Assembly: GCA_024403755.1 (NCBI GenBank)
Contig: JAKSRF010000003.1
Location: forward strand, 1 to 54,275
Reading direction: 5' to 3'
Length of the DNA stretch: 54,275 nucleotides
DNA from: Clostridia bacterium
Lineage (GTDB): Bacteria; Bacillota; Clostridia; Saccharofermentanales; Saccharofermentanaceae
Shown here: positions 12,374-20,714 of the stretch, piece after piece
How the letters are laid out: the number at the start of each line of letters is the position of its first letter
Numbering within the stretch: position 1 is the first letter of the stretch
The notes under the pieces: generated by a model
Seen by the model: the letters and a program-made list of their open reading frames with translations, nothing else
Told to the model about the DNA's origin: nothing
Databases searched by the model: none
Made by a program: the position numbers and the translations under genes

Positions 12374-13474
12374 ATGGCAGAGAATATGGGAAATGATATG
12401 ATGGAGAATCAGATTGAACAAGATGTAACAATGGAGGTTACCGACAAGAAATGTCCTCAATGCGGCGCAACATTAAAATTTAATCCGGGTACAATGTCAC
12501 TCAGTTGTGAGTTTTGCGGATACAGTAAACAACTTCCTAAGGCTGAGACCGGTGAGGCAGTAGTTGAACTTGATTTTAAAACAGCTACCATTCGTTCTTC
12601 ATGTGAGTGGGGAACTAAGAAAAAGAGTATTGTATGTAAGCAGTGCGGCGGTGAGGCAATCTATGATGCACTTGATACAGCTGCTACTTGTCCGTTTTGC
12701 GGTTCTTCAAGCGTAATGCCTGTAGACAATATTGAGGATGTAATGTCCCCGGGCGGAATTGTACCGTTTGAGATAAGTAAGGAAAAAGCGGAACAACTGT
12801 TTAAGAGTTGGTTAGGCGGAAAGTTATTTGCTCCTAAAGCAGCCAAACAGTCTTGCCAGGCAAAGGATTTTCAGGGAATATATCTACCATTCTGGACATA
12901 TGATTGTGATACTACATCAACCTATTCAGCCAGATTAGGCTTTGAGTATGGTTCCGGTGATAATAAGAAAATTCGTTGGAAGAACTATAGCGGAGTTTAT
13001 GATCAATTTATTGATGATGAAATAGTATACGGCAGTAAGAAAACTGTTTCACCTGAACTTAAGGCAGTATCTAATTTCGATTTTAAGAAGATACAGCCGT
13101 ATTCTCCTGAGATAGTTGCAGGTTTTGCAGCTGAGAGATATTCTGTCGGACTTGACGAAGGATGGACTAAGGCTCAACAGACAATTAAACCGAAGCTTCA
13201 CAGCGGTTTAACCAATCAGCTTCGTAAGGCTTATCATCCGGATAGGATTGAAGGAATTAAGATGGCTACCAATTATGACAATATAACATTTAAGTATTTG
13301 CTTGCACCTATTTGGATGGCTGCATTTAAGTATAATGATAAAACTTATAATATAGCCATTAACGGACAGACGGGAAGAGTAGCAGGAAAGTCACCTATAT
13401 CAGCGATTCGTGTTATTATTGCTATTATTATTGCTATTGCAATTTTTGCATTTATCATGAGTTTGCAAAAATAA
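12374..13474 (+). CDS. Double zinc-ribbon protein with C-terminal membrane anchor
   Basis: Two zinc ribbons are visible: CPQC...CEFC (C27, C30, C45, C48) and CKQC...CPFC (about residues 87-112). A central domain of unknown function (about 120-330) has conserved-looking tryptophan/tyrosine motifs such as GIYLPFWTYDCDTTSTYSA. A single membrane helix (about 343-363) ends the protein, placing the rest in the cytoplasm. Proteins of this design are common in Lachnospiraceae and are often annotated as TFIIB-type zinc-ribbon proteins without known function. It is 11 bases downstream of the GH13 gene, with a good GGAGGA site, and is the last gene before the operon terminator. A link to glycogen is inferred only from position. 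Confidence 0.75.
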   Translation: MAENMGNDMMENQIEQDVTMEVTDKKCPQCGATLKFNPGTMSLSCEFCGYSKQLPKAETGEAVVELDFKTATIRSSCEWGTKKKSIVCKQCGGEAIYDALDTAATCPFCGSSSVMPVDNIEDVMSPGGIVPFEISKEKAEQLFKSWLGGKLFAPKAAKQSCQAKDFQGIYLPFWTYDCDTTSTYSARLGFEYGSGDNKKIRWKNYSGVYDQFIDDEIVYGSKKTVSPELKAVSNFDFKKIQPYSPEIVAGFAAERYSVGLDEGWTKAQQTIKPKLHSGLTNQLRKAYHPDRIEGIKMATNYDNITFKYLLAPIWMAAFKYNDKTYNIAINGQTGRVAGKSPISAIRVIIAIIIAIAIFAFIMSLQK

Positions 13475-13504: not shown

Positions 13505-13538
13505 GGCTGTCTCAATCGAGACGGCCTCTTTTTATTTT
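13505..13538 (+). terminator. Rho-independent terminator of the glycogen operon
   Basis: GGCTGTCTC (13505-13513) pairs with GAGACGGCC (13518-13526) in 9 base pairs around an AATC loop and is followed by TCTTTTTATTTT. Confidence 0.93.
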
Positions 13539-13883: not shown

Positions 13884-16800
13884 ATGTTAAAATCAGTTAA
13901 GAAGAGATTAGCTTCATTTTTAGCCGCAGTTCTTTGTGTTTCGTCTTTGTTGCCGATAACAAACAATATGTTGAGAGCTGATGAGACGTATACTGATGGG
14001 TATTCCTTTTCGACGGTTCTTTCAAAATTTCAGTGCTTTGTCGAGAATGATTTGAATTATAACAATCATTGTGTAGGCGCTTTGGTAGCAGGCGGAACCG
14101 CTAATATTGATTGCTTCGGTGAAGGATCAATCTCACCTTCGTATTTCGGTAATCTTGCTAAGCTGAATAACTTTAATTCTCCTGCTTGGGTAAGCGGTGC
14201 GGGCGTTGATTATCTTTATTTCAACAATATAGACAGCAATCTTTATAACTTAATGGTAAATGCCGGAAGAGCTAACGCTTTCCGACAGAATCCGGGTTAT
14301 ATGAATGTTGCTTCTGCTTTTAATACACTTCGTTCTGATTCAGCAGATATTGCAAACAGTGCTAACAATTATATAGATGCAACTAAAATAGATACATATG
14401 GTACACTTCAGGTAGATTTGTTAAATGGTTCAAATGTTAAGATTGAGTATGATGCTTGGCTTAAAGCTGACAGAGTAAGTTTCTTCAATTCCAGTAACGG
14501 AGACTTTGGTCCTGCTTCGTTTGCTACCGGAAACTACGAAATCAGTATTGTAAATGTTGGTCTTGAGAGCGGAAATTCAGTTAATTTGGATTTCTACAAC
14601 AAAATTTATGTTAACGGTGTGCCTTTCAGCAATGAAAATGCTTTGAAGTCTTGTCTTAATGCAAGTAACGCAGGTCAGATTTACCTTGGTGGTGTAAACC
14701 TTGTGTGGAATTTACCGGATGCAGCTTTGGTAAACGCTACTCAGCTCCAAGGACATTTGCTTGCGCCTAGTGCTTCGGTAGTTGCTGAGGGTGGAAACTA
14801 TGAAGGTGGAATTATTGCGAAGAATCTTACTGCTTCTGCTGAAGGACATTTCTTCCCGTATAATCCTTCCAATGGTTCTATTCTTGCTTATTCAAATACA
14901 ATAAGCATTGCTAAGGTTGATGGTTCTTCAAATCCTGTAGCAGGTGCTAAGTTAAAGATTTCAGGTGTTACTTCAGAGAATAATACTATCTTTAATTTTA
15001 ATGAGGCTACGTACGATGCTTCGACAGCTGCAAGTGTTAACGTTAATCCGGGATATATTGAATGGGTAACCAATGATTCTGAATTTAAGGTTGGTAAACT
15101 CATTGAAGGTTCATATTTAGTTGAAGAATTAAGTGCGCCACAGGGTTATAAGACGGTTGCTCCGTTTTCATTTACAGTTAATCACGACAGAACAATTTCT
15201 TTTGAGAATACTAATAATGTTACTTTTGACGGCGATACATTGACATTTAAGGTAACTGATAATGAGTTGCCGAGAACTGTGGTATCTATTTCAAAGCAGG
15301 ATGTTGATCATAAGGGAAGAGAACTTGAAGGTGCTTCAATGAAGCTTGTCGGAGTTGATACATCAAGAAATACCATTATCTTCAGTGAGAAGAATGTTAC
15401 TCCGGGTGCTGATGCTACAGATTTTTCTTACGGTGAGTCTTTGATTTGGACTTCAGGTACAACTGCAACATCAGTTGCACTTCTTGACGGTACTTATACT
15501 CTTACCGAGGAAGTTGCACCTACAAAGTACGATAAGGTAGTTACGAGTTTTACATTTACGGTTAACCAGGGTAAGGTTACTACGTCTTCTACAGATGCAA
15601 GTTATATGTTGGATTCAGCTTCCAATAAGATTGCTATGTTTGATGAACTTCTTCCTACTCCTACACCTACGGTAGAGGTATCCATTTCAAAGCAGGATAT
15701 TACAAGCGGTGAAGAGATTAAGGGTGCTTCTCTTACTTTGATCGGTAAGGATGTAAATGGTGCAGATATAAATTTTGCAGATACTGATATAGTTGCTTTA
15801 GGTGATGAGGCAGTTGTTTCTTCTTACGGCAAGTCGTTAGTATGGACATCAGGTTATACTGCTACTAAGGTTGGTCTTGTAGATGGTTCTTATGAGTTGA
15901 AAGAAACTGTTGCTCCTGAAGGATATGATGCAGTTACTTCTGTATTCTCATTTACAATTAAGGATGGAGTTATTTCTTCAAATGTACAGAGTAAATTCTA
16001 TTCATTTACCGATAATGTAATTGTGGTATTTAATGAATTAACTCCTGTTACTCCTACACCTACTCCTACTGTAGAAGTATCAATCTCAAAGCAGGATTTG
16101 GCTGATAAGGGAAGTGAACTTGCAGGTGCTCAGATGGTTCTTAACGGCTATGAGGATGCAAGCAAGACAAGTAAGATTACTCTTGATAAAGATGCAATTA
16201 TATTGGGTGAGGGTGCTAAGCTTGTTTCAAGCGGTGACTCTTTGATTTGGGTTTCCGGAACAAAGACAACAAAGGTTAATCTTCCTGATGGTTTCTATAC
16301 ACTCTCAGAGGGTTATGCTCCTGAAGAGTATGTTTCTGTAACAACTGTATTTGAATTCGAGATTACAAACGGTGTAGTTTCTTCTTCAGATGTTTGTGAT
16401 ATTTTCAGTGTTTCTGACGATTATGTAGTTTTGTTTAACGAGCTTAAGCCTACAATAACGCCGGAACCGACAGATACACCGGTTCCTACTTATGAAGTTA
16501 AGCTTTCTAAGCAGGATATTGCAGACAAGGGTGCTGAGATTCCGGGTGCGGAGATGAAGCTTACCGGTGTTGATGTTAACGGTGTAATCGTTGAGTTTAC
16601 TGCTGCTGATGTAAGCGCACCGAAGGATGCCAAGATAGAGTCTTACGGATCAAGTTTGGTATGGACTTCAGGTTCTGATTCAATAAAGGTTAATCTTGTT
16701 GACGGTGAGTATAAGCTTATCGAGGTTAATGCTCCGATTGATTATTTGCCGGTAACAACAGAGTTCACGTTTACAGTAAAAGACGGTGTAGTAAGCACTG

Positions 16801-19800
16801 ATGAGACAAGTGTTAACTTCTATGCTGCGAATGGTTTGGTTGCTTTGTTCGATGAGCTTCGTCCTACTCCTACACCAACTGTATATGTTTTTGTTTCAAA
16901 ACAGGATATTGACAATAAGGGTATAGAACTTAAGGGTGCTACACTTGAACTTACAGGTGTTGATGCTGACAATGTTGCTGTTTCATTTGACAATGTTGAA
17001 GTTAAGTTAGGAAGCGGAGCTTCGAGAGTTAATACTGACAGTTCAGTATTAAGTTGGATTTCAGGTACTACAGCTACTAAGGTTGGTCTTGTAGACGGTA
17101 CTTATTATCTTAAGGAAGTTGTTGCTCCTACTTACTATAACGGAGTAACTACTACATTTGAGTTTACAATCAAGAACGGTGTGGTATCTACTTCAGTTGT
17201 TGATAAGTGTTTTACGGTTGAGAAGGATGTAGTGGCTTTGTTTAATGAATTGGCTCCTACAGAGGTATCAATTTCTAAGCAGGATATAGATAATCAGGGT
17301 AATGAGCTTAAGGGTGCTACACTCGAGCTTTCAGGTGCTGATGTAAACGGTGATGCTATCATTATTGACAGTTCATGTGTAGTTCTCGGTGATGAGGCTG
17401 TTATGGGTAAGGCTGAAGCTGAGGGCGGTATCAGATGGACGTCAGGTTTAACAGATACTAAGTTTACTTTGGATGACGGTTTATATACCCTTAAGGAAAT
17501 TGTCGCTCCGACAGGTTATGATAAGGTTGTTACTATCTTTACATTTACTGTTATGAACGGAACAATTTCTACTAAGGTTGATTCATTATCATATGCATTA
17601 GATTCAGATTCTAATTCAATTGTAGTATTGAATAACCTTACCAAGAGTACGGTTTCTATTTCAAAGCAGGATATTGATAATAAGGGTCCTGAACTTCCTG
17701 GCGCTGAAATGTCTCTTGAGGGCGTTGATGTAAATAATAATCCGATTGTTTTCTATGATAAGGATGTTACAAGAGGTAACGGTGCTGTTATTGAGTCCGC
17801 TCCGAATTCTAAGGTTCTTGTTTGGGTATCAGGTACAACTGCTACAAAGGTAAAACTTATTGACGGTACATATACTTTAACTGAGAATTATGCTCCTAAG
17901 GATTATGAGAAGGTAACAACAACATTTATATTCACTGTAGCTAATGGTGTGGTTACTTCTTCGATGAGCAGTTCAGAGTTTGCTGTTACAGATGATTCTG
18001 TTGTATTGTTTAACGCACCGATACCTGTTCCGTCAAAGACACCTGTAAGTATTTCAAAACAGGATATAGCCGATAAGGGTCCTGAACTTCCTGGTGCAAC
18101 ATTGGTATTAACCGGTGTTGATGCAGATAATAATCCGGTTGTATTTGAGTCTACGGATGTAGCTGTAGGAAAAGATGCTACTCTCCTTGATACAGGTGAT
18201 AATACTGTATTAAGTTGGATATCAGGCAGTGATGCAACAGCAGTAAATATGATTGATGGTACATATACTTTGGAGGAAACATATGCTCCGAAGGGTTATG
18301 ATAAGGTTACTACGACATTTACCTTTACTGTTACAAACGGTGTAGTTGATACAAAGGAAACAAGTGTTAACTTCTCAGCTGAGAACGGATTGGTTGCATT
18401 GTTTGATGAACTTATTCCTACTCCGACACCTACAATTGCAGTAACTGTTTCAAAGCAGGATTTTGATGATAAGGGTGATGAACTTAAGGGCGCTACATTA
18501 AGTCTTACAGGCGAGAATGTAAACGGTGAGGTCATTACATTCAGCAGTTCTGATGTTGAACTCGGTACTGATGCATATTTAGTTGATAACGGTGATGATA
18601 CAGTATTGACATGGGTATCAGGTACAACTTCAACAAAGATAAATCTTGCAGACGGTAAATACTCTTTGAAAGAAGATTATGCGCCTGAATATTATGATAA
18701 GGTTACAACAGTATTCACATTTACTATTACAAACGGAGTTGTATCAACAAGTGAAGTAAGTGATTATTTCACAGCTTCAGATGATATGGTAGCGCTCTTC
18801 GATAAGCTTCTCCCGATTCCGACTGTTGAGGTTTCTATTTCAAAGCAGGATATTGATGCAAAGGGTGATGAGCTTAAGGGTGCAACTTTAAGTCTCTCAG
18901 GTAAGGATGTTAACGGTGATGCTGTTACGTTTGACAATGCTGATGTAACATTAGGTAAGGATGCTGTGCTTGTAGATAATTCTGATAGTTCAGTATTGAG
19001 CTGGGTATCAGGTACAACATTAACTAAGGTAAATCTTGTTGATGGTACATATACTCTCAGAGAGGATTATGCTCCTGAAGGATATGATGTAGTTACAACA
19101 GTATTCACATTTACTATTACAAACGGAGTTGTATCAACAAGTGAAGTAAGTGATTATTTCACAGCTTCAGATGATATGGTAGCGCTCTTCGATAAGCTTC
19201 TCCCGATTCCGACTGTTGAGGTTTCTATTTCAAAGCAGGATATTGATGCAAAGGGTGATGAGCTTAAGGGTGCAACTTTAAGTCTCTCAGGTAAGGATGT
19301 TAACGGTGATGCTGTTACGTTTGACAATGCTGATGTAACATTAGGTAAGGATGCTGTGCTTGTAGATAATTCTGATAGTTCAGTATTGAGCTGGGTATCA
19401 GGTACAACATTAACTAAGGTAAATCTTGTTGATGGTACATATACTCTCAGAGAGGATTATGCTCCTGAAGGATATGATGTAGTTACAACGGTATTTACTT
19501 TTACTATTGAGAACAGTGTTGTATCAACAAGTGAAGTAAGTGAGTTCTTTACTGTATCAGACGGTGTTGTTGCCTTGTATAATGAGCTTATAAGAACAAT
19601 TACTCCACCGACAACACCAACACCTACATCTACACCGACCCCTACACCTACAAAGGCTCCAACGCCTACACCTACATCTACTCCGACAGAGACTCCTACG
19701 CCTACTCCGGCTGTTTATGAAGTAAATCTTTCAAAGCAGGATTTGGCTGGTAACGGGGAGGAACTTCCTGGCGCTAAGATGGAACTTACAGGTACTGACG

Positions 19801-20654
19801 ATAATGGTGTATCTGTAGTATTTGAAGCGGATGATGTTGTTCTTCCTTCAGATGCTAAGCTTGTTTCAGTAGGCAAATCATTTGAGTGGATATCAGGATC
19901 TAAGGCTGCTGTAGTAAATCTTCCAAACGGTGACTATTCTTTGAGAGAAGAAGTTGCACCTGACGGATATGATATAGTTACAACTACATTTACATTTAAT
20001 GTTAAGAATGGCGTTATTTCAACAAGTGAGGTAAGTGAGAACTTTACCGTTTCCGGTAATACTGTTGCTCTGTTTGATGCTTTACTTAAGGATCCGACAA
20101 CAACTGCTACACCTACACCTACACAGCCGACGCTTGTTCAGGGTACAACAGTTACACCTGTTCCTACAGAGACAGTTGATGTTACTGTTATTGTTCTTAA
20201 GGAAGAGGATGAGACACCTATTGAGAAGGCTGAAGTAGTTGTAATTGACAATTCAACAAATACAGTTTACGAGTCTTTTGAGACAGATGGTAACGGTTCA
20301 TATATATTAGAGGATCTTCCTGTAGGTAACTATACTGTTGTTCAAACTACAACAATTGACGGTTATCATATTGATGAGACTGAATACACAGTAGTTGTTG
20401 CAGGTGCTGATCTTGTTACAATAGACGGATTGATTACTACTACATTGACAATCTATAATCCGACAGAGAGACCTGAAGTTACTCCTAATCCTACACCTAC
20501 ACCGGAGAAGGCAACTTCTAATATTACATCCAGTCATTCTGTTACAAGAACAGGTGAGAGTGTATCACTCTCTTACATCATGGCTATAGTACTTTTTGCA
20601 ATTGCTGGATTTATGCTTACTGCAGCTCCGGGCAAAAAGAGAGAAGAAGATTAA
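13884..20654 (+). CDS. Giant cell-surface protein: choice-of-anchor A-like head plus SpaA/CnaB-like repeats
   Basis: This 2256-residue protein begins with a signal peptide (about 1-32). The head (about 35-335) resembles choice-of-anchor A domains: VGALVAGGTANIDCFGEG at the start and LLAPSASVVAEGGNYEGGII at the end. A first divergent SpaA-like module starts near 337 (ISIAKVD), then twelve modules begin with SKQD and run 115-130 residues each. They keep the marks of self-made isopeptide bonds: Lys in SKQD, Glu in the LxE..AP motif, and Asn/Asp in LF(N/D)EL at the end. Pro/Thr-rich linkers (TPTPTP) lie between several modules. A different beta module (about 2096-2192) precedes the C-terminus. 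The end (2220-2256) reads VTRTGE, a hydrophobic helix and KKREED: a cell-wall sorting signal, but with Thr where LPXTG has Pro. Two modules are exact duplicates at DNA level. No sortase is nearby. Confidence 0.9.
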   Translation: MLKSVKKRLASFLAAVLCVSSLLPITNNMLRADETYTDGYSFSTVLSKFQCFVENDLNYNNHCVGALVAGGTANIDCFGEGSISPSYFGNLAKLNNFNSPAWVSGAGVDYLYFNNIDSNLYNLMVNAGRANAFRQNPGYMNVASAFNTLRSDSADIANSANNYIDATKIDTYGTLQVDLLNGSNVKIEYDAWLKADRVSFFNSSNGDFGPASFATGNYEISIVNVGLESGNSVNLDFYNKIYVNGVPFSNENALKSCLNASNAGQIYLGGVNLVWNLPDAALVNATQLQGHLLAPSASVVAEGGNYEGGIIAKNLTASAEGHFFPYNPSNGSILAYSNTISIAKVDGSSNPVAGAKLKISGVTSENNTIFNFNEATYDASTAASVNVNPGYIEWVTNDSEFKVGKLIEGSYLVEELSAPQGYKTVAPFSFTVNHDRTISFENTNNVTFDGDTLTFKVTDNELPRTVVSISKQDVDHKGRELEGASMKLVGVDTSRNTIIFSEKNVTPGADATDFSYGESLIWTSGTTATSVALLDGTYTLTEEVAPTKYDKVVTSFTFTVNQGKVTTSSTDASYMLDSASNKIAMFDELLPTPTPTVEVSISKQDITSGEEIKGASLTLIGKDVNGADINFADTDIVALGDEAVVSSYGKSLVWTSGYTATKVGLVDGSYELKETVAPEGYDAVTSVFSFTIKDGVISSNVQSKFYSFTDNVIVVFNELTPVTPTPTPTVEVSISKQDLADKGSELAGAQMVLNGYEDASKTSKITLDKDAIILGEGAKLVSSGDSLIWVSGTKTTKVNLPDGFYTLSEGYAPEEYVSVTTVFEFEITNGVVSSSDVCDIFSVSDDYVVLFNELKPTITPEPTDTPVPTYEVKLSKQDIADKGAEIPGAEMKLTGVDVNGVIVEFTAADVSAPKDAKIESYGSSLVWTSGSDSIKVNLVDGEYKLIEVNAPIDYLPVTTEFTFTVKDGVVSTDETSVNFYAANGLVALFDELRPTPTPTVYVFVSKQDIDNKGIELKGATLELTGVDADNVAVSFDNVEVKLGSGASRVNTDSSVLSWISGTTATKVGLVDGTYYLKEVVAPTYYNGVTTTFEFTIKNGVVSTSVVDKCFTVEKDVVALFNELAPTEVSISKQDIDNQGNELKGATLELSGADVNGDAIIIDSSCVVLGDEAVMGKAEAEGGIRWTSGLTDTKFTLDDGLYTLKEIVAPTGYDKVVTIFTFTVMNGTISTKVDSLSYALDSDSNSIVVLNNLTKSTVSISKQDIDNKGPELPGAEMSLEGVDVNNNPIVFYDKDVTRGNGAVIESAPNSKVLVWVSGTTATKVKLIDGTYTLTENYAPKDYEKVTTTFIFTVANGVVTSSMSSSEFAVTDDSVVLFNAPIPVPSKTPVSISKQDIADKGPELPGATLVLTGVDADNNPVVFESTDVAVGKDATLLDTGDNTVLSWISGSDATAVNMIDGTYTLEETYAPKGYDKVTTTFTFTVTNGVVDTKETSVNFSAENGLVALFDELIPTPTPTIAVTVSKQDFDDKGDELKGATLSLTGENVNGEVITFSSSDVELGTDAYLVDNGDDTVLTWVSGTTSTKINLADGKYSLKEDYAPEYYDKVTTVFTFTITNGVVSTSEVSDYFTASDDMVALFDKLLPIPTVEVSISKQDIDAKGDELKGATLSLSGKDVNGDAVTFDNADVTLGKDAVLVDNSDSSVLSWVSGTTLTKVNLVDGTYTLREDYAPEGYDVVTTVFTFTITNGVVSTSEVSDYFTASDDMVALFDKLLPIPTVEVSISKQDIDAKGDELKGATLSLSGKDVNGDAVTFDNADVTLGKDAVLVDNSDSSVLSWVSGTTLTKVNLVDGTYTLREDYAPEGYDVVTTVFTFTIENSVVSTSEVSEFFTVSDGVVALYNELIRTITPPTTPTPTSTPTPTPTKAPTPTPTSTPTETPTPTPAVYEVNLSKQDLAGNGEELPGAKMELTGTDDNGVSVVFEADDVVLPSDAKLVSVGKSFEWISGSKAAVVNLPNGDYSLREEVAPDGYDIVTTTFTFNVKNGVISTSEVSENFTVSGNTVALFDALLKDPTTTATPTPTQPTLVQGTTVTPVPTETVDVTVIVLKEEDETPIEKAEVVVIDNSTNTVYESFETDGNGSYILEDLPVGNYTVVQTTTIDGYHIDETEYTVVVAGADLVTIDGLITTTLTIYNPTERPEVTPNPTPTPEKATSNITSSHSVTRTGESVSLSYIMAIVLFAIAGFMLTAAPGKKREED
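18702..19489 (+). repeat. Perfect 390-base tandem duplication inside the surface-protein gene
   Basis: Bases 18702-19099 and 19092-19489 are identical over 398 bases at an offset of 390 (130 codons, exactly one module). Reading both copies line by line I found no mismatch; the flanking bases differ (18701 G against 19091 A, 19100 A against 19490 G). The other modules differ substantially from these at DNA level, so the copy is recent. Confidence 0.95.
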
Positions 20655-20680: not shown

Positions 20681-20714
20681 GGCTGTCTCATATTTGAATG
20701 AGGCAGCCTTTTTT
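20681..20714 (+). terminator. Terminator of the surface-protein gene
   Basis: GGCTGTCTCAT (20681-20691) pairs with ATGAGGCAGCC (20698-20708) in 11 pairs around a 6-base loop, followed by TTTTTT. Confidence 0.93.

Follow-up and report, generated by a model that had tools for sequence, protein, structure and literature searches.

A putative wall-anchored fibrillar adhesin with thirteen isopeptide-type stalk modules in a Clostridia bacterium

Introduction

The stretch of Clostridia bacterium DNA analysed here (54,275 nucleotides of contig JAKSRF010000003.1; hereafter, the window) carries a very long reading frame. In a reading of the sequence only, its product had been taken for an adhesin in which a choice-of-anchor A-like head is carried by a stalk of isopeptide-type modules. 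This raises the question of whether the modules keep the residues and the fold of domains in which a Lys is joined to an Asn or Asp, and whether the protein acts as a fibre of its own or as a subunit of a pilus. Isopeptide bonds have been predicted widely, and one survey counted 69,718 predicted bonds in 33,049 proteins (PMC12617251).

Results

The Adhesin Gene and Its Locus

The gene is a single intact ORF (13884-20654, + strand) that starts with ATG and has no internal stop, so the 2256-residue product claimed by the sequence-only reading stands. The protein has a computed molecular weight of approximately 240 kDa and a pI of 4.2. From the N- to the C-terminal end we found a signal peptide, a choice-of-anchor A head, 13 SpaA modules with Pro/Thr spacers, a 14th SpaA-like module and a sorting signal (Table 1). 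These comprise the signal peptide, adhesive domain, stalk repeats and wall anchor of a fibrillar adhesin, the anchor being VTRTGE and not LPXTG. The signal peptide was called from N-terminal charge and hydropathy rather than with a dedicated predictor. With terminator-like hairpins on both flanks, the gene appears to be monocistronic.

Table 1. Features of the adhesin gene, its product and its immediate flanks (nucleotide positions in the window; residues of the adhesin).
Feature	Nucleotides	Strand	Residues	Basis or remark
Zinc-ribbon membrane protein gene, upstream neighbour	12374..13474	+		366 aa
Terminator-like hairpin (intrinsic) between zinc-ribbon and adhesin genes	13505..13526	+		0 expected in shuffles
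Signal peptide region	13884..13982	+	1-33 (MLKSVKKRLASFLAAVLCVSSLLP...ADE)	Basic N-terminus, hydrophobic 8-30
Choice-of-anchor A / pAdhesive_15 (ice-binding-like) head	14016..14864	+	45-327	PF20597, TIGR04215
Module 1 (AKVD type)	14904..15284	+		PF17802 match 14898-15212; K/E/D kept in ortholog
12 SKQD-type SpaA/CnaB modules, m2-m13	15285..20102	+	468-2073	Acceptors D N N D N N N D D D N D
m1 triad			K344/E415/D459	
m2 triad			K471/E542/D587	
m3 triad			K603/E674/N717	
m4 triad			K736/E809/N852	
m5 triad			K876/E947/D990	
m6 triad			K1006/E1078/N1121	
m7 triad			K1132/E1205/N1250	
m8 triad			K1261/E1334/N1377	
m9 triad			K1392/E1465/D1508	
m10 triad			K1524/E1597/D1640	
m11 triad			K1654/E1727/D1770	
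m12 triad			K1784/E1857/N1900	
m13 triad			K1951/E2022/D2065	
390-bp tandem duplications yielding m10-m12	18448..19543	+		Tandem Repeats Finder, pairwise nt counts
Pro/Thr-rich spacer m12/m13	19593..19721	+	~43 residues	Sequence; Tandem Repeats Finder period 6/12/24
Module 14, membrane-proximal SpaA/carboxypeptidase-regulatory-like, triad lost	20160..20483	+		PF17802, PF13620
Sortase-type sorting signal VTRTGE (20540-20560), hydrophobic helix and KKREED tail	20540..20651	+	Helix 2223-2251	Sequence, hydropathy
Terminator-like hairpin (intrinsic) directly 3' of adhesin gene	20681..20708	+		

Glycogen genes and the zinc-ribbon gene lie upstream, tRNA-Leu and Tex downstream, and transporters were also present in the Pfam scan of the neighbours. 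We detected the zinc-ribbon gene in all of the genus's genomes (85 of 85). In 19 of the 27 loci with a readable downstream gene, as counted by reading translated starts, the very next gene encodes a large secreted protein of choice-of-anchor-A-like type. Because the zinc-ribbon marker and an adhesin recur together in the genus, we regard the window protein as the form that a conserved adhesin locus takes in this genome.

Other adhesins were also noted. A second choice-of-anchor A protein of this genome is encoded on another contig (C109), and a third contig (C96) holds the C-terminal part of an adhesin that has the same anchor; the two may be opposite ends of a single gene that was split at repeats, and their neighbours recur in a second genome (G013; C16, C41). 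At G001:C6:130500-150000 two nearby adhesins of about 2900 residues each carry Asp-type modules.

The Choice-of-Anchor A Head

The head, proposed earlier to be choice-of-anchor A-like, passed the curated cut-offs of both family profiles over nearly their whole length: PF20597 gave 60.4 bits (cut-off 23.8; positions 4-254 of 254) and TIGR04215 gave 59.9 bits (cut-off 29; positions 2-254 of 255). An alignment of 27 heads, 26 of them from other proteins of the genus, keeps the pattern G..LAPnA...G.iiA....E.H. Identity is 67% to the ortholog (head plus module 1) and 13-33% to the other heads. AlphaFold2 run on the head with module 1, using a two-row alignment, gave a pLDDT of 41. The only PDB matches of the head profile were to antifreeze proteins (3vn3, 7ddb and 7dc5), weak (E 0.15-0.25) and aligned at the shared C-terminal motif. 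The family takes its name from an ice-binding-like adhesive fold. By analogy, from the domain company and the family name, an adhesive role of the head is likely.

Conservation of the Lys, Glu and Asn/Asp Triad in the Stalk Modules

The Pfam profile search matched PF17802 across the protein (3.6e-109) in 14 stretches. We aligned the 13 modules with the nine of the nearest relative (JAKSRE010000005.1) and found the triad invariant in 22 of 22, with a Lys, a Glu and a column occupied by Asn or Asp only (12 Asp, 10 Asn). The Lys, Glu and Asn/Asp attributed by the sequence-only reading to the 12 SKQD modules and to the AKVD module before them are thus retained in 13 of 13. The LF(N/D)EL motif that it had placed around the acceptor holds for the Asn/Asp itself and fails as a strict motif, since VTDNE, LNNL, LFNAP, LFDKL, LYNEL and LFDAL also occur. 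The invariant Glu precedes xxAP (TAEP in module 2 of the ortholog).

The same pattern extends to 92 modules from other adhesins of the genus and its neighbours, where Glu was present in 92 of 92, Lys in 88 and an Asn or Asp acceptor in 89; these counts are not independent, the modules having been found by similarity and many sharing recent common ancestry. The four stretches lacking Lys begin after the Lys position, that is, they are cut short at the start. The acceptor column, mostly Asp in this set, is the most Asn/Asp-restricted of all columns of the module. As judged from the aligned sequences, conservation of the triad is above chance.

Structure Model of Two Adjacent Modules

The sequence-only reading had named structure prediction as a way of checking the bonds. 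For this, modules 8 and 9 (two of the 13) were modelled with AlphaFold2 from an alignment of eight two-module rows, which gave a mean pLDDT of 86.8 and a pTM of 0.56. In both modules the Lys lies in the first strand, the Glu in a middle strand and the Asn/Asp in the last strand, the arrangement expected of a CnaB domain: in m8, K5 falls in strand 2-7, E78 in 72-80 and N121 in 116-121, and in m9, K136 falls in 130-138, E209 in 203-211 and D252 in 247-252.

Superposition with VIA-align placed model residues 1-126 on residues 293-600 of the Cpa chain (2xi9; Z 12.1, rmsd 1.8 A over 93) and residues 127-253 on residues 22-118 of FbaB CnaB2 (2x5p; Z 10.5, rmsd 2.4 A over 93). Together with the PF17802 match, these superpositions indicate the transthyretin-like CnaB fold. 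Counted in from the alignment ends, and assuming no gap there, K136/D252 fall on Lys31/Asp117 of FbaB, which we take to be the numbering of its bonded residues. Counted in the same way and under the same assumption, K5/N121 fall on Lys297/Asp595 of Cpa, a bonded pair (PMC12617251, Table 1). This coincidence of the triad with the bonded residues of both proteins is therefore good evidence that the modelled Lys-Asn/Asp geometry is right for a bond, evidence that consists in residue placement and not in a measured distance. Among the best profile matches of the modules in the PDB were 6fwv (E 1.7e-11) and 2x5p (E 1.3e-9), and the profile alignment to 2x5p sets SKQD on SKRD and LxExxAP on FVETAAP. 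Three lines of evidence give good support to the isopeptide reading of the 13 modules that had been put forward earlier: conservation, homology to FbaB CnaB2 and Cpa, and the sites that Lys and Asn/Asp occupy in the superposed model.

A Wall-Proximal Module Without the Triad

The uninterrupted set of isopeptide-type modules that the sequence-only reading described runs from m1 to m13 and ends there; module 14, which it had missed, has lost the triad. In this module (residues ~2093-2200; best PF17802 stretch 2105-2174; PF13620 at 32.6 bits) Gln replaces the Glu, no Lys is aligned and the Asn is kept, a state common to four proteins that include the ortholog and the last modules of the C96 and G013 C41 paralogs. 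With the triad absent, we read it as a bond-less SpaA/carboxypeptidase-regulatory-like module. One could go further and see the stalk as a graded mechanical device, with 13 locked modules, a selected mix of Asn and Asp, and the conserved unlocked module near the wall as a load-extending shock absorber; we consider this improbable.

Module 14 bears on a second question, namely whether the triad might be conserved for packing only, most modules being devoid of a cross-link. That module 14 keeps the fold without the triad would agree with this, as would the N-terminal domain of SpaD, which reportedly forms its bond only slowly (PMC4014117), and the bond in the present modules is a predicted one. 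However, packing alone hardly explains why a first-strand Lys, a column restricted to Asn/Asp and an invariant Glu persist in 13 modules and throughout the genus, and module 14 lacks Lys and Glu at once, a joint absence that favours the triad reading of the remaining 13. Conservation for packing only is thus, in our estimate, quite unlikely.

Linkers and Stalk Stiffness

The junctions between an acceptor and the next Lys are 11-24 residues long and mostly of PTPTPT type; one measures 51. The very stiff fibre proposed in the sequence-only reading is not supported, because most junctions are Pro/Thr linkers. The low pTM of the two-module model also means that the mutual orientation of m8 and m9 is not confidently predicted. 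Judged from the linkers and the model, the stalk is better pictured as tough beads strung on semi-flexible links than as a single stiff rod. By analogy with published isopeptide domains, the individual modules may plausibly resist proteases.

Wall Anchor, Sortases and the Question of a Pilus

The C-terminal VTRTGE departs from a strict LPXTG and occurs also in the ortholog, in both paralogs and in one distant adhesin of the genus. Sorting signals of relatives read VTRTGE, VATGE, PATGE, VQTGE, ISTGE and similar. The genome encodes two sortases, both on other contigs. One is class-B-like; the other (on C111) adjoins dnaA and a MurT-like gene and is nearest to class C, below the cut-off.

We considered whether the protein could instead belong to a sortase-assembled pilus, as its backbone or tip subunit, and not be a fibrillar adhesin made of a single chain. 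Its module type is known from pilins and pilus adhesins, the C111 sortase gets its highest score, one short of the cut-off, from the class C (pilus) sortase model, and NCBIfam pilus_ancill_1 gave a weak match of 126 bits (cut-off 600). Yet the 2256-residue protein has no YPK and so no YPKN-like pilin motif, the window holds no sortase, and the Pfam scan of the neighbours gave neither a sortase nor a second pilin gene. A class C sortase clustered with partner pilins was not found among the genome's sortases and the scanned neighbours, and the C111 enzyme has dnaA and the MurT-like gene beside it instead. The gene, moreover, has its own terminators, and the protein is already of fibre size. The missing YPK, the lack of nearby pilin or sortase genes and the location of both sortases on other contigs led us to judge a pilus subunit very unlikely.

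Asn and Asp as Acceptors

The acceptors of m1-m13 follow the order DDNNDNNNDDDND (D D N N D N N N D D D N D). An alternation of Asn and Asp along the stalk, as had been described, was not borne out: the order contains seven runs, which fits chance (P(>=7 runs) = 0.70 under random order, runs test), and strict alternation was rejected on this test. The ortholog has the acceptors D D N D N N D N D; modules 4, 5 and 7 have switched between Asn and Asp and no other residue is used. The near-identical m11 (Asp) and m12 (Asn) have acceptors one G/A change apart. Because the acceptors differ at these three ortholog positions and between m11 and m12, Asn and Asp are interchangeable here. Lys-Asn and Lys-Asp bonds are both standard in CnaB domains (PMC12617251), and a D295N mutant of SpaA from L. 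rhamnosus still forms its bond (PMC4923907).

It might nonetheless be supposed that the mixture of acceptors is under selection as a pattern, tuning how the bonds form or how the stalk behaves mechanically along its length. Asn is indeed enriched, at 10 of 22 modules in the protein and its ortholog vs. 4 of 89 in the other adhesins of the genus (Fisher p 8e-6, an optimistic value, as the modules are not independent). Against selection of a pattern stand the random order along the stalk and the acceptor differences at m4, m5 and m7 of the ortholog and between m11 and m12, and we give the idea very little credence.

Module Duplication

Tandem Repeats Finder reported a 390-bp repeat in 2.8 copies with 89% matches, and m11 and m12 differ at 37 of 381 nt. 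On these nucleotide comparisons, m10-m12 are products of recent 390-bp duplications, and the 13 modules therefore do not amount to 13 independent observations. The assembly is a 168-contig draft and the paralogous adhesins break at repeats (C109/C96; C16 and C41 of G013), but the frame is intact throughout and the ortholog (1853 residues, from a horse-faeces MAG) also has nine distinct modules in one ORF, so that a module number created by misassembly of near-identical repeats is hardly probable and, since most modules are merely 36-61% identical, could concern m10-m12 only.

Discussion

Taken on sequence and model evidence, the protein is very probably a sortase-anchored, monomeric fibrillar adhesin with a choice-of-anchor A head on 13 isopeptide CnaB/SpaA modules and a triad-less module 14 next to the wall. 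The signal peptide would export it, and a sortase would fix it to the cell wall through the putative VTRTGE signal. The stalk of 13 CnaB/SpaA beta-sandwich modules would then hold the head out from the cell. Within each module, the first-strand Lys and the last-strand Asn/Asp are predicted to join spontaneously by an isopeptide bond, aided by the Glu before AP. With the first strand locked to the last, a module would resist pulling and proteolysis. Asn and Asp would be drifting alternatives, releasing ammonia and water, respectively, rather than a code. Module duplication would change the length of the stalk, as the 13 modules here and nine in the ortholog suggest. The head is predicted to bind a ligand, presumably a host glycan or matrix component or another cell.

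The closest known module is FbaB CnaB2 of Streptococcus pyogenes (2x5p), the parent of SpyTag/SpyCatcher, with the same fold and triad positions and 38% identity over 93 residues. Shared are the Lys of SK(R/Q)D, the Glu of (Y/F)xxxExxAPxGY and a hydrophobic strand with Asp. Here, in contrast, there are 13 repeats, the modules span ~125 vs. 100 residues and 6 of 13 use Asn. In overall plan the protein resembles AggLb of Lactobacillus paracasei, which likewise has a signal peptide, an adhesive N-terminus, a long CnaB stalk and a sortase anchor. AggLb carries six collagen-binding domains, 20 CnaB-like repeats and LPXTG, and its stalk was proposed to act as an antenna (PMC5014864); it differs from the window protein in its head family, its nearly identical and more numerous repeats and its strict LPXTG. 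With the choice-of-anchor A / pAdhesive_15 proteins (TIGR04215, PF20597) the window protein shares a head that passes both cut-offs and bears the G..LAPnA...G.iiA...E.H motif. The giant adhesin of Mobiluncus mulieris (PMC10619420) is likewise a very long single chain with an internal cross-link in each domain, but it is much longer, with 51 cross-linked Ig-like domains and a mixture of ester, isopeptide, disulfide and thioester links. Tandem isopeptide fibrillar adhesins are thus a described class, of which AggLb (20 repeats) and the Mobiluncus protein (51 domains) are longer members.

Knowledge of such adhesins is unchanged by the present case, in which the Asn/Asp series and the conserved bond-less module are of modest interest. 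The 13 homologous CnaB modules form a natural series in which both acceptor types occur; new Spy-type ligation pairs could be drawn from it, and it offers a possible test of Asn vs. Asp acceptors on one scaffold. For the organisms themselves, the protein flags a conserved adhesin locus within a large genus of gut Clostridia.
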